A stretch of 58,916 nt of DNA from Planctomycetota bacterium (GTDB lineage Bacteria > Planctomycetota > B15-G4 > JADJEK01). Below are positions 9,458 to 53,826 of the stretch, piece after piece. Position 1 is the stretch's first letter; each line of letters starts with the position of its first letter. The stretch spans positions 1 to 58,916 of the forward strand of contig JACQZJ010000194.1 in NCBI GenBank assembly GCA_016213895.1, in the 5' to 3' direction. Below the pieces are notes generated by a model that worked only from the letters and a program-made list of their open reading frames with translations, searched no databases and was not told the origin of the DNA. Made by a program: the position numbers and the translations under genes.

Positions 9458-11497
9458 ATGGACGTCGAGGAGCACCGCTACAGCGAGGACCCGTCGCGCG
9501 GCCCGGCCGACGCGCGCACCGACCTGCCCGGCGCGGACTACTTCTTCCTGGGCAACGGCCACGTCCTGGCCGCCGTGCAGGTCGATCCCTCGGGAACGGG
9601 GACGCCGCTCGGATTGCTGCTCATGCGGCCGGAGCGCTTCGGGCACAAGCGCGCCGCCTTGACTTTCGACCCGGAGGAAGGAATTGCGGGAACCGCGCTG
9701 TTGGTCGAGACCGGCGGCCGCGTGCACCAGGCGCGCCCCGGCGCAGTCCTGGCGCGCTGGACCGACAGCGGCGGCGTTCCAGCCGTGGCGGCCTCGTGGC
9801 AGGACGGCGGCGTGCAGGTGGAAGAGACCTTCTTCTGCCCGGATCGCGTCTCGCCGCGGCTCGTGCGCGAGATCCGCGTACGCGCACCAAAGCCCCTCGA
9901 CGCCGTCCTGACCAGCGGCCGCGGAGCCGCCGCCCTGCGCCGGCCCTTGCGGCTCGAGGGCGGCGGGCCGGCGTGCGCCGCGATCCGCTACGAAATCGAG
10001 TCGTCAGAGACGGGCGACACGGTGCGCGGCGCGTGGAGCGAGCCGGCCGCGCCCGCGGAGGACTCGCGCAGCTTCCACGCCGGCCTGGCGACGCTTTCCT
10101 TCTCTCCGGAACAGGCCGGCGCGCCGCTCGCCCACCTGCTCCGGGCAGCGCGCCACCAGCTTCCCGCGGTGATCGCCGCGTCCGGCGCCGTGGACGGGAG
10201 CATCTGGCAGTACAACCTGGAGTGGGCGCGCGATCAGGCGCTCGAAGCGCTCGCGCTCTGCCAGATCGGGGCGATCGGCCTGGCGCGGACCATGCTCGCG
10301 CGCCTGCTCGACCGGTTCGTCACGGCCGAGGGGGACACGGTCGACTCGGGCAGGACGCGCCCGCCGCAGGAGGTGGAGCTCGATCAGAACGGCATCCTGC
10401 TGCTGGCGCTCAAGGGGTACACGGACTGGTCCGGTGACCTCGAGCTGGCGCGCAGCCGCTGGGCGAGGATCCGCGCGCTGGCCGACTTCCCGCTGCGCCC
10501 GGTGTTTCGCCACGTTGCCTCGGGCCTGCTTCGCAATCGCCGCGAGTTCTGGGAGCGCCACGCGGCGTTCGGCATCGAGGAAGGGCTCGAGCTGGCGCAT
10601 CAGCTCTTCGTGTCCGTCGGCCTCTCCTGCGCCGCGGACCTGGCGCACGACCTCGGCCGCGAGGACGAGGCCGGCCGCTGGCGCGAGGCCGGAGCGAAGC
10701 TCAAGCGCGCCATGCTCCAGGACGCGCGCTTCTCGCTCGTGGAAGGCGGCCGCTTCATCAAGCGCCGCCGGCTCGACGGCACGGTGCAGGAGACGGCAAC
10801 GCTTCCGCCCGATTCGGGCCTGCCGCCCGAGCTGCCGATCTGCCGCCACCCCGGCCCGCACTTCCTTGACCCGGACACGTCGTGCGCCCTGCCCATCGCC
10901 TTGGAGTTCGTGGATCCGCGCGGCGAGCTGGCGCGGCGCACTCTGGACGGCATGGAGCTCCTCTGGAACCAGTCGTGGGAAGGAGGCGGCTACTGCCGCT
11001 ACAACGTGACGTCCGAGGCCGACTCGCCCGGCCCCTGGCCCTTCGCCTCGCTCTTCGTGGCGCGCGCCTGCCTGGAGGCCGGGGACGATGCGCGCGTGTG
11101 GCGCGTGCTGCGCTGGCTTTCTTCGCTTCCGGGCGGGGCGCGCGCGGGAGCCTGGCTCGAGTTCTACGGCCACAAGCCCGTGCCGCCCTGCCCGCCGGTC
11201 GGGGTCATCCCCTGGACCTGGGCGGAGATCCTGACCTTCTTCATCCATCACCTGCTCGGCGTGCGCCCGCGCCGCCATGGTCTGGAGCTGCGGCCGCGCC
11301 TGCTCGCCGGCCTGGATGAAGCATCGGCCGCGCTCGCGGTGCAAGGCAAACGCCTGCGCCTCAGCGTGCGCCGCGCGCGCGGCGCGGAAGGGCCCTCTGC
11401 GATGGTCAACGGCGCGCGGCAGGCGCTCACGAATGGCCGGCTGCTCTTGCCGCCGCCCGCCGGCGACCTGAGCGTGGAGATCGTGACGGGTTCCTGA
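9458..11497 (+). CDS. Six-hairpin glycosidase-like protein
   Basis: A protein of about 679 aa with an N-terminal beta-rich part (LGNGHVLAAVQVDPSGTGTP) and a C-terminal (alpha/alpha)6-barrel region typical of amylo-alpha-1,6-glucosidase/GH15-like enzymes. The segments YNLEWARDQALEAL, LDQNGILLLALKGYTDW and WNQSWEGGGYCRYN line up with the substrate-binding face of such barrels. I start at ATG 9458 with a GGAG 13 nt before it; the open frame extends further upstream but that stretch has no protein-like character. No signal peptide is visible, so it is probably cytoplasmic. It is followed after 46 bp by an alpha-mannosidase in the same direction. The exact GH family and substrate are unresolved. 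Confidence 0.7.
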   Translation: MDVEEHRYSEDPSRGPADARTDLPGADYFFLGNGHVLAAVQVDPSGTGTPLGLLLMRPERFGHKRAALTFDPEEGIAGTALLVETGGRVHQARPGAVLARWTDSGGVPAVAASWQDGGVQVEETFFCPDRVSPRLVREIRVRAPKPLDAVLTSGRGAAALRRPLRLEGGGPACAAIRYEIESSETGDTVRGAWSEPAAPAEDSRSFHAGLATLSFSPEQAGAPLAHLLRAARHQLPAVIAASGAVDGSIWQYNLEWARDQALEALALCQIGAIGLARTMLARLLDRFVTAEGDTVDSGRTRPPQEVELDQNGILLLALKGYTDWSGDLELARSRWARIRALADFPLRPVFRHVASGLLRNRREFWERHAAFGIEEGLELAHQLFVSVGLSCAADLAHDLGREDEAGRWREAGAKLKRAMLQDARFSLVEGGRFIKRRRLDGTVQETATLPPDSGLPPELPICRHPGPHFLDPDTSCALPIALEFVDPRGELARRTLDGMELLWNQSWEGGGYCRYNVTSEADSPGPWPFASLFVARACLEAGDDARVWRVLRWLSSLPGGARAGAWLEFYGHKPVPPCPPVGVIPWTWAEILTFFIHHLLGVRPRRHGLELRPRLLAGLDEASAALAVQGKRLRLSVRRARGAEGPSAMVNGARQALTNGRLLLPPPAGDLSVEIVTGS

Positions 11498-33830: not shown

Positions 33831-34640
33831 ATGAGATACGCCCTTCTCCTCGTCCTGGCGGCCTGCACTCTCTTGCCGCGGCACGCGCCGCAGCGGTCCC
33901 CGCTGCCCGATTCCCTCGCGGTCTTCCTCATGAACGAGCACCATCCGGCCATGTCGCCCGTGCTCTACACGCACGCGCGGCACGTGGATCCGGCGGTGAT
34001 GGGCAGGCAAATGGCCTGCGCCGAGTGCCACCACACGCTGAAGGAGCGCCCGGACGAAATCCCGGCAAGCTGCGGCGACTGCCATCCGCAAGCTCTCGAA
34101 GCCGGGGAGCACGACGAGAGCCTGCCGCATGACGAGGCCCAGCCGCCCGACCTCTGAGCGGCGATCCATAAGGTGTGCAGGTCCTGCCACACCATCCCCG
34201 CCAACCCTGACCAGGACGGCGTGATGACGGATTGCGCCGAGTGTCACCTGCCCAAGCGCGGCGCTCCGTCCGTCCGCGCGCTCCTTCCGGCCGGCCGCAT
34301 TCGCCCCACCTATGTGTTCGACTCGTCGGTGCCCGAAACCGAGAAGAGCGCCTGGATCGAGGCGTTCCGCGCGGGCCTCGACGTGTACCAGGTCGCCGCG
34401 GTCGAGCTGCCGGGGGGAGGAGCGGTCCCGGCGAGGATCGAGGTGTCGCTCGACATGGGCGAGGGGCAGACCGACACGGGCGCCGCCTTCCTCGCGGCGC
34501 GCGCCCGCGCCGTGCTTCACCTTCACCGGGTCCGCGTCGAGGTCGAGAGCCCTCCGGTGGTGGGAACGGAACGGGGGGAGGTCGCGCGCTCCGCCCTGGC
34601 CGACGTGGCCGAGCGGCTGTCCGACGCGATCGGCCCGTAG
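33831..34640 (+). CDS. Four-haem cytochrome c lipoprotein interrupted by an in-frame TGA
   Basis: A single reading frame runs from ATG 33831 to the stop ending at 34640 but contains TGA at 34155-34157 (codon 109). The N-terminus has a short lipobox-type signal (LVLAAC, Cys12). Haem motifs are CAECH (63-67) and CGDCH (81-85) before the TGA, and CRSCH (116-120) and CAECH (135-139) after it. A further 125 residues form an unknown C-terminal domain (TYVFDSSVPETEKSAWIEAF). Motif spacing is of the class III cytochrome c type. Because frame and haem pattern continue across the TGA, this is one gene. It carries a nonsense mutation, a recoded codon or a base error. A hairpin begins 14 nt after the TGA. 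Confidence 0.75.
34172..34193 (+). other. Hairpin just after the in-frame TGA (bSECIS-like geometry)
   Basis: GGTGTGCAG (34172-34180) pairs with CTG (34184-34186) and CACACC (34188-34193) around a GTC loop, with one bulged C: nine base pairs. The loop begins 23 nt after the TGA and its first base is G, which agrees with the loose bacterial SECIS consensus. The stem lies over a CxxCH codon stretch and could be fortuitous. Confidence 0.4.
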
Positions 34641-52011: not shown

Positions 52012-52485
52012 GGATCTCCTTCCTATCGGACGCGCAAATCCCTGCCATTCACTGGATAACATCCGTCCAGAGAGGCACCTCAATAGTGCACGCCGCAGAC
52101 CCTCTTGTCAAGGTCCGCCGCGCCGGCGCAGCGCCCCCGTAGGCGCCTGCCGCAGCGGCTCCACTCCGGCCTGCCCCCAGCCTCCCGTCCCCTCGAGACT
52201 CCGAGCCTCGGCCCTTCGGCGAGTCCGCATGCCGGGGATGCCGGGTCGATCCAGGTCCGCGCAAGTCCTTCCGACCGGGGTTGCTCCGGTGTCCGGGCCT
52301 TCTCCCGTGGGGAAGCTCGCCAGAATCACTCGGCCGTGCGCGGCTTCCCCTTCGCTTATGCAAGCGGTGGCCTCTGAAGCACATTCGCGCGGAGCAGTGC
52401 CATACCGGAAGACCGGCGGCGAATCGTGACGCCGCTCGGCGTGGACCCGGTCCGCGGCAGACCCATCCGTCGTAAGGAGAAGATC
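52012..52485. other. Divergent intergenic stretch, hairpin-rich
   Basis: About 470 bp between the sigma factor and the beta-helix gene. I see no supportable gene. It contains short hairpins (GCGCC/GGCGC at 52131-52146; CGCTT/AAGCG at 52353-52366). The promoters of both divergent units must lie here but no strong hexamers are visible. Confidence 0.45.
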
Positions 52486-53826
52486 ATGAAAGCTGCGCCG
52501 ACTCTGTTTGCCCTCGCCCTCGTGTCGTCCATTGCTCGGGGCGGCGTGTGGTACGTCGACCACGACAACTGCCCGGGTCCCGGCAGCGGCTCGAAAGAGG
52601 ACCCGTTCTGCAGCATCGGTCAGGCCATTAGCGTCGCTGCCTACCGGGATCTGGTTCTTGTCGCACCGGGCCTGTATCACGAATCGCTGGTCATCGAGAA
52701 CGTCACGCTCCGGAGCGATCGAGACTTGGATCCCGCCACCGTCGACACTTCGCCGTACGACACGATCATCGACGGCAGCACGACCGCCCTGTCGCCCACA
52801 CTCTGGTGCCTGGGCAGCCGCAGCACCGTTCTGGAGGGGTTCACGATCCGCGGCGGGACGGGCATGTGGCTGCTGAGCCACCCATACCTGGAAGCACTCG
52901 GCCGGGGCGGCGGGATCCTCTCCTTCGGGTCTCCGACGATTCGAGGCAACATCATCCGCGACAACGACCTCAGGCAGAACGTGGGATCCGTCAACAGAGC
53001 TTGGGGCGCAGGCATCTTCTGCAACGCGGGCTCTCCCCTGATTCAGAACAACGTCTTCTACCGCAACACCACCGCGTACGATCCCTCTGCCGGAGGCATG
53101 GGGTACGGCGGAGGCCTCTGCTGCGACGCGGGCGCGGCGCCGACGATCATCAACAACACCTTCTGCGAGAACGCGGCCACCTCCGGCGGCGGCATCTGGT
53201 GCGAGGCAGGTGCCTCCCCGGTGATCGTGAACACGATCCTCTGGAAGAACGACGCGGCCAACGGCCCGGAGATCGAGGATCCCTTCCTCTGCTCCTCCGT
53301 GACCTTCTGCAACGTGCGCGGCGGCTGGCCAGGGCGAGGCAACATCCACGCTCTGCCGGCGTTCGTCGAGCCTGCGGCCGGCGACTTCCACCTGCTCAGC
53401 TTCTCGCCCTGCCGCGACGCTGGTCTGGATCTCGGTGGACCGGCCCCGCCGAGCACCGACTTCGAAGGCGATCCGCGCTCCGCGACCGACATCGGAGCGG
53501 ACGAGTTCCACGCGCACCTCTACTTCACCGGCGACCCGTCTCCGGGCGCCACGCTGGCCGCGAAGATCACCGGAACTCCAGGAGCTTCGCCTGTGCTGCT
53601 CGCCATGGGCTCAGGCGTGCTGCAGCAGCCAACGGCCCTGCCTCCCTACCTCGGCTCCTGGTGGCTCGACGGACCTTACGTGTTCATCGTGCTCGGGCCC
53701 ATGCCGGCCGCAGGGTGCACCACCCTTGGCCTGCTGCTGCCCGTGAGTCCGCCGAGCTACTGCGTACCGCTGCAGGCGATCGTCCGCGAGCAGATCACGA
53801 ATCCTTGCATCATCCACGCGAAGTAG
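52486..53826 (+). CDS. Secreted right-handed beta-helix protein
   Basis: A 446-aa secreted protein. A signal peptide (MKAAPTLFALALVSSIARGG) precedes a right-handed parallel beta-helix (about 40-330) with repeats of the form GAGIFCNAGSPLIQNNVFYRN, GGGLCCDAGAAPTIINNTFCEN and GGGIWCEAGASPVIVNTILWKN, and a terminal TDIGADEF seal typical of such proteins. The last 100 residues (YFTGDPSPGATLAAKITGTP, VFIVLGPMPAAGCTTL) form a separate beta domain, perhaps for surface attachment. AAGGAG precedes ATG 52486 by 6 nt. Such folds bind or cleave polysaccharides, but no catalytic acids could be assigned. Confidence 0.8.
   Translation: MKAAPTLFALALVSSIARGGVWYVDHDNCPGPGSGSKEDPFCSIGQAISVAAYRDLVLVAPGLYHESLVIENVTLRSDRDLDPATVDTSPYDTIIDGSTTALSPTLWCLGSRSTVLEGFTIRGGTGMWLLSHPYLEALGRGGGILSFGSPTIRGNIIRDNDLRQNVGSVNRAWGAGIFCNAGSPLIQNNVFYRNTTAYDPSAGGMGYGGGLCCDAGAAPTIINNTFCENAATSGGGIWCEAGASPVIVNTILWKNDAANGPEIEDPFLCSSVTFCNVRGGWPGRGNIHALPAFVEPAAGDFHLLSFSPCRDAGLDLGGPAPPSTDFEGDPRSATDIGADEFHAHLYFTGDPSPGATLAAKITGTPGASPVLLAMGSGVLQQPTALPPYLGSWWLDGPYVFIVLGPMPAAGCTTLGLLLPVSPPSYCVPLQAIVREQITNPCIIHAK

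Follow-up and report, generated by a model that had tools for sequence, protein, structure and literature searches.

Within the window, by which we mean the whole 58,916-nucleotide stretch of DNA that was analyzed, a gene on the forward strand at 33831-34640 very probably encodes a selenocysteine (Sec)-containing tetrahaem cytochrome, a judgment that we make with high confidence and that leaves the chemistry of the Sec residue aside. At the level of sequence, we demonstrate a conserved in-frame TGA, a putative bSECIS hairpin behind it, the machinery for Sec insertion, purifying selection downstream of the TGA, and a coherent domain make-up for the predicted protein. This adds a selenoprotein family in which a tetrahaem domain is joined to an LptE-like domain, and it is one that automatic gene callers split into two proteins.

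Gene and protein architecture

The reading frame is interrupted only by a TGA at 34155-34157, which is codon 109, and it terminates at a TAG. Two CxxCH motifs are encoded upstream of the TGA (codons 63-67 and 81-85) and two downstream of it (codons 116-120 and 135-139). Across the window there is a single match to TGA-N9-CAY-N6-TGY-N6-TGYCAY, and 100 shuffles contain no match at all. The features of the gene are as follows.

33831-34640, + strand: coding sequence of the putative Sec-containing tetrahaem cytochrome lipoprotein; 269 residues, Sec at 109, stop codon TAG at 34638-34640; the sister-species orthologue has equal length
33831-33866, + strand: signal peptide, predicted from sequence, ending in a lipobox-like LAAC (Cys12); Cys12 is invariant in 9/9 members
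33972-33983, + strand: His48 and His51, candidate distal haem ligands; a cytochrome c3-like HxxH ahead of the first CxxCH, invariant in 9/9 members
34017-34034, + strand: haem motif 1, CAECH, with His68 directly after it as a candidate distal ligand; His68 occurs in 8/9 members
34071-34085, + strand: haem motif 2, CGDCH, from sequence and the nine-member alignment
34155-34157, + strand: in-frame TGA, codon 109, probably read as Sec; TGA at this column in 9/9 members from 7 genomes
34167-34169, + strand: His113, candidate distal ligand; invariant, 4 residues after Sec and 3 before haem motif 3, with an equivalent His in c3 and HmcA domains
34172-34193, + strand: bSECIS-like hairpin with loop GUC at 34181-34183, 23 nt from TGA to loop
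34176-34190, + strand: haem motif 3, CRSCH, coded within the hairpin, its Arg by the rare codon AGG
34233-34247, + strand: haem motif 4, CAECH, from sequence and the nine-member alignment
34293-34631, + strand: C-terminal domain with a predicted LptE/PelC/CsgG-like fold; AlphaFold pLDDT mostly 75-95, with Foldseek matches in the PDB

Residues 37-139 match the class III cytochrome c family PF02085, with scores of 29.9 and 28.3 bits that exceed its cut-off of 22.9, and among PDB structures the best relatives are HmcA and the cytochromes c3. A first-pass annotation of this DNA had placed the TGA inside a four-haem class III cytochrome; the open frame, the two CxxCH motifs on either side and the PF02085 match confirm that placement. 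The four CxxCH motifs are accompanied by four candidate distal histidines (H48, H51, H68 and H113), which we take to stand at the positions of the distal ligands of cytochrome c3, the alignments to HmcA and to c3 being in agreement on this. Since these four candidate ligands are intact, the Sec is probably not itself a haem ligand. It precedes His113 by four residues. AlphaFold predicts, at low confidence, that this segment is helical, and the haem domain as a whole is modelled at low confidence with either 7 or 9 sequences. The region from about residue 155 to 267 is well modelled and resembles LptE, PelC and CsgG, which are outer-membrane lipoproteins, with Foldseek matches of this domain to LptE in the PDB reaching an E value of 8e-6. 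The lipobox-like motif suggests lipidation at Cys12, and the protein may be an outer-membrane lipoprotein that faces the periplasm.

The gene lies beside genes for a RarA/MgsA ATPase and an ABC transporter, both here and in the sister species. Its neighbors in the other carrier genomes are unrelated to these, and the neighborhood therefore gives no functional clue. Elsewhere in the window, the product of the gene at 52426-53826 has the stretch YVDHDNCPGPGSGSKEDP, which strikes us as presumably reminiscent of Planctomycete surface proteins.

Conservation of the TGA and of the hairpin behind it

Profile searches across 392 genomes of the phylum, in which only six candidates per genome were scored so that weak relatives may escape, yielded seven further genes in five further genomes (one each in G099, G131 and G082, and two each in G045 and G024). 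Each of these genes has a single in-frame TGA, and it falls at the same column. Together with the window gene and its orthologue in a sister species, this places the TGA at one common column in nine homologous genes from seven genomes, which represent six family-level groups of one phylum and whose proteins are 20-84% identical to that of the window. The sister-species orthologue is 84% identical and carries the TGA at the same codon, and third positions account for 70 of the 128 nucleotide differences between the two genes. None of the nine genes contains any additional stop or frameshift. The comparison with the sister species gives a dN/dS of 0.32 up to the TGA and 0.22 beyond it, with a value of 0.09 in the stretch of haem domain that immediately follows the TGA. 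Had translation ended at this codon, such constraint would not persist downstream.

The family motif around the Sec is U-x3-H-x2-CxxCH. Across the nine aligned members, the columns that never vary are Met1, the lipobox Cys, His48, His51, the residues of the CxxCH motifs, Pro78, the UGA column and His113; the one member that is missing His68 is L081. All conserved cysteines in this alignment belong to haem motifs or to the lipobox, and thus there is no conserved resolving thiol. Two of the genomes each hold two divergent Sec-cytochrome paralogues (L027 and L029 in G045, L081 and L083 in G024), and the TGA is kept in both copies.

Profile matches that lack the TGA were found in G051, in G145 and as a third gene in G024, and these have Glu, Tyr and Ser at the Sec column; the LptE-like extension was absent from the stretches of them that were read. 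A match to L022, from a member of the Prevotellaceae, is a short one, with 36% identity over 36 residues, and we set it aside. In relatives from the PDB, the Sec column is occupied by Lys, Arg, Asp, Gln, Met or Ala, and a Cys was found at this column in none of the PDB relatives and genomes examined from this one phylum. These alignments agree with the expectation in the first-pass annotation that Lys, for example, and not Cys would occupy this position in relatives. The same annotation had proposed aligning codon 109 with its homologues, on the reasoning that Cys there would support Sec and that its absence would refute it. No Cys appeared, and the homologues instead supplied the TGA itself in 9/9 members. 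The refutation does not follow, because selenoproteins without Cys counterparts are on record: GrdA is among the few selenoproteins that lack Cys homologues (PMC12013277), ExtKL has been proposed as another (PMC1914089), and the homologues found here keep the TGA. Sec seems to have arisen here at a position that was not Cys. A pipeline that screens for Cys/TGA pairs would overlook this family, given that no form with Cys turned up.

The hairpin, GGUGUGCAG-GUC-CUG(C)CACACC, occupies 34172-34193 and begins 14 nt past the TGA. A hairpin is present in 9/9 members, with a G within the first two loop positions and a loop that lies 20-23 nt from the TGA. The published rules for bSECIS elements specify a loop of 3-9 nt, a stem of at least 4 bp, a G in the first two loop positions, a spacing of 16-37 nt, and a minimum free energy of -7.5 kcal/mol or lower (PMC13188914). 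The loop, stem and spacing rules hold in 9/9 members, which makes plausible the first-pass description of this hairpin as bSECIS-like. The calculated energy is -10.3 kcal/mol here, and the energy threshold is reached by 7/9 members, the weaker core hairpins being those of L024 (-6.8) and L083 (-5.3).

When the window gene was considered alone, dinucleotide shuffling left the hairpin unremarkable (z about -1), and the caution of the first-pass annotation was fair on such single-gene evidence. Under synonymous recoding, an equally good fold arose in 1.2% of trials for the window gene, and in a set of seven genes, four beat the null (about 0.01-0.03) and three did not. The Sec-site hairpin is stronger than control hairpins placed equally far from the remaining three CxxCH motifs of the same genes when the mean of these controls is taken (p = 0.002, paired Wilcoxon); against the strongest control of each gene, its advantage is not significant (p = 0.06). 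Both p-values are generous, since the genes compared are related. Lower-stem pairs vary on both sides in some members, and among seven sequences two of the pairs show compensatory change. The Arg of the Sec-site CRSCH is encoded by AGG in all five members that have this motif, which are the five closest, and AGG makes up 8% of the Arg codons of the window. L024 codes CRSCH twice, using AGG with a hairpin at the Sec site, and CGG without a hairpin at haem 2. We regard the hairpin evidence as supportive, and it is the conserved TGA that carries the case for Sec. The apical part of the hairpin, UGCAGGUC..GC, is one that we take to resemble the E. coli fdhF hairpin UGCAGGUCUGCA; compared with the fdhF bSECIS, the window hairpin has a three-base loop and a bulged C on its 3' side.

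Selenocysteine machinery and alternative readings of the TGA

The first-pass annotation had also suggested a search for selA, selB, selC and selD, and all of them are present in the genome, which encodes two SelA and two SelB proteins (above the curated cut-off), two tRNA-Sec with anticodon UCA, and one selD. The genes of one Sec system are clustered as selC1-selA1-selB1 at G000:C97:39338-42868 (L050). Those of the other are on separate contigs, with selA2-selD(Sec) on C64 (L051), selB2 on C82 (L052) and selC2 on C214 (L053). The two SelA copies are 38% identical to each other, and the two SelB copies are 37% identical. The selD gene (L051:11070-12143) directly follows selA2 and has an in-frame TGA of its own at 11145, within the motif SSCAG(U)AAK, after which comes the hairpin GGACCUC-GUC-GAGGUCC. 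Likewise, a TGA-containing selD adjoins selA in the sister species and in eight other members of the order. The conserved selD TGA points independently to UGA being read as Sec in this lineage. SelA was present in 6/6 of the TGA-cytochrome genomes tested, a set that left out G024.

Among 14 genomes of the order that were searched, only those of the two species of the genus have two SelA proteins, and the Sec cytochrome is likewise found only there. In a SelA tree, SelA2 groups with the order, and SelA1 falls outside it, with classes that include other carriers of the cytochrome; support is 100/99 for the split and 97/94 for the placement of SelA1, on a long branch and from one gene only. SelA1 is the copy held in the selC-selA-selB cluster in both species of the genus, and the cytochrome tree puts the genus with G131, G099 and G082. 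These placements fit a history in which the cytochrome may have been acquired together with the second Sec set. Two different complete Sec operons have been reported in Photobacterium profundum 3TCK (PMC5330540), and thus an arrangement of two Sec systems has a precedent.

The first-pass annotation had judged a nonsense mutation or a base error, which would make the gene a pseudogene or a mis-sequenced one, to be at least as likely as Sec. The genomes are indeed draft assemblies, and the hairpin of the single gene is not significant by shuffling. However, the same TGA is found in the separate assemblies of seven genomes, the nine genes are free of other stops and frameshifts, a full set of Sec machinery is present, and selection continues downstream at a dN/dS of 0.22. 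That estimate does not stand; with homologues that keep the TGA, we consider mutation or error ruled out for practical purposes. The TGA might instead be a real stop that is followed by re-initiation, such that a two-gene operon yields two proteins. In line with this, a GTG (34173) lies 15 nt past the TGA, some members have an ATG there (MCDTCH in L027), and the same alternative was raised for GSU2937/2936 (PMC1914089). Yet the residues from the TGA to the candidate start are conserved, including the invariant His113, which precedes the possible restart, and no member has a TAA or TAG, a gap or a change of frame at this column. Moreover, the downstream piece would consist of haems 3 and 4 without a signal peptide, and c-type haem attachment is periplasmic. 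A two-gene operon is therefore rejected as very improbable. The lack of Cys among relatives at this column would also suit a UGA that stands for an amino acid other than Sec, or one that ribosomes read through without specificity. Set against this are the many ordinary genes here that TGA terminates, the bSECIS-type hairpin in 9/9 members, and the two UCA tRNAs, which were picked up by the Sec model or from their proximity to Sec genes and which both that model and ARAGORN classify as tRNA-Sec; we give such recoding very little credence.

Proposed function and relation to known multihaem selenoproteins

If the gene encodes a Sec-containing tetrahaem cytochrome, as we favor, SelB and Sec-tRNA(Sec) would decode UGA 109 under the direction of the hairpin that starts 14 nt downstream. 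The product would be a full-length, exported lipoprotein of 269 residues that carries its four c-type haems in a bis-His domain of the c3 kind and ends in an LptE-like domain, and following export it may be anchored in the outer membrane through its lipid and the LptE-like domain. As to the chemistry, we tentatively propose, as the likeliest option, that the selenol near the haem could be a redox-active site that passes electrons from the haem chain to a small oxidant in the periplasm, for example a peroxide, a disulfide, a metal or a metalloid. Because there is no conserved resolving thiol, either haem or a partner protein would need to return oxidized Sec to its reduced state. A different view, which concerns function only, is that the Sec is structural or binds metal, capturing mercury, silver or a metalloid, rather than taking part in catalytic redox chemistry. 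The lack of a conserved partner Cys is compatible with this, as are the intact candidate haem ligands, which leave the Sec unneeded as a ligand; however, Sec is usually redox-active (PMC12013277, PMC13188914), and its location close to a haem ligand is in keeping with such chemistry. None of these arguments is decisive, and we consider a structural or metal-binding role the less likely of the two, though a serious alternative.

Bolder, and doubtful when all of its parts are taken jointly, is the proposal of an outer-membrane tetrahaem selenoprotein family in which a Sec without a Cys counterpart adjoins a haem and draws from haem the electrons that recharge it, the gene having arrived in this genus with a second, divergent selC-selA-selB set, and the two Sec systems perhaps recognizing different SECIS hairpins. 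If this were true, selenol chemistry would be wired directly to a haem chain. Both the role of a selenol next to a haem and the reason why the genus keeps two divergent Sec insertion systems can now be tested.

A search of open-access papers on selenoproteins and tetraheme proteins returned nothing relevant, and none of the curated models used here describes the window family. Among the closest known systems is ExtKL (GSU2937/GSU2936, NCBIfam NF040886), which is likewise a multihaem c-type cytochrome, from Geobacter, with Sec predicted from an in-frame TGA, and for which no homologues without Sec were known at the time (PMC1914089). In contrast to the window protein, ExtKL has five N-terminal haems (PMC1914089), a conserved ext gene cluster and a size of about 50 kDa, and a SECIS element was not found for it in that study (PMC1914089). 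Among the seven members of the window family that were scanned, there was no match to NF040886 at E values up to 10, and no ext-type genes occurred among the neighbors scanned; membership of the ExtKL family was rejected on these grounds. Selenite reduction is a context in which ExtKL has been discussed (PMC5877670); this may serve as a lead for the window family and is not evidence about it. ExtKL is listed with Sec-containing members alongside the octahaem cytochromes of the tetrathionate reductase family (TIGR04315) and the GSU2204 family (NF041027) (PMC13188914). The latter two likewise have Sec in proteins with haem motifs but differ in architecture; in the same seven members, one alone touched TIGR04315 (E = 0.036), and NF041027 gave no match at E values up to 10. 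The c3-like domains of c3, TmcA and HmcA (PF02085) share with the window protein the arrangement HxxH...CxxCHH...CxxCH...H-CxxCH...CxxCH, whereas at the Sec position they have the residues given above for the PDB relatives, and they have no LptE-like domain. Sec-containing multihaem cytochromes are already known, and the window family adds one with a tetrahaem and an LptE-like domain.
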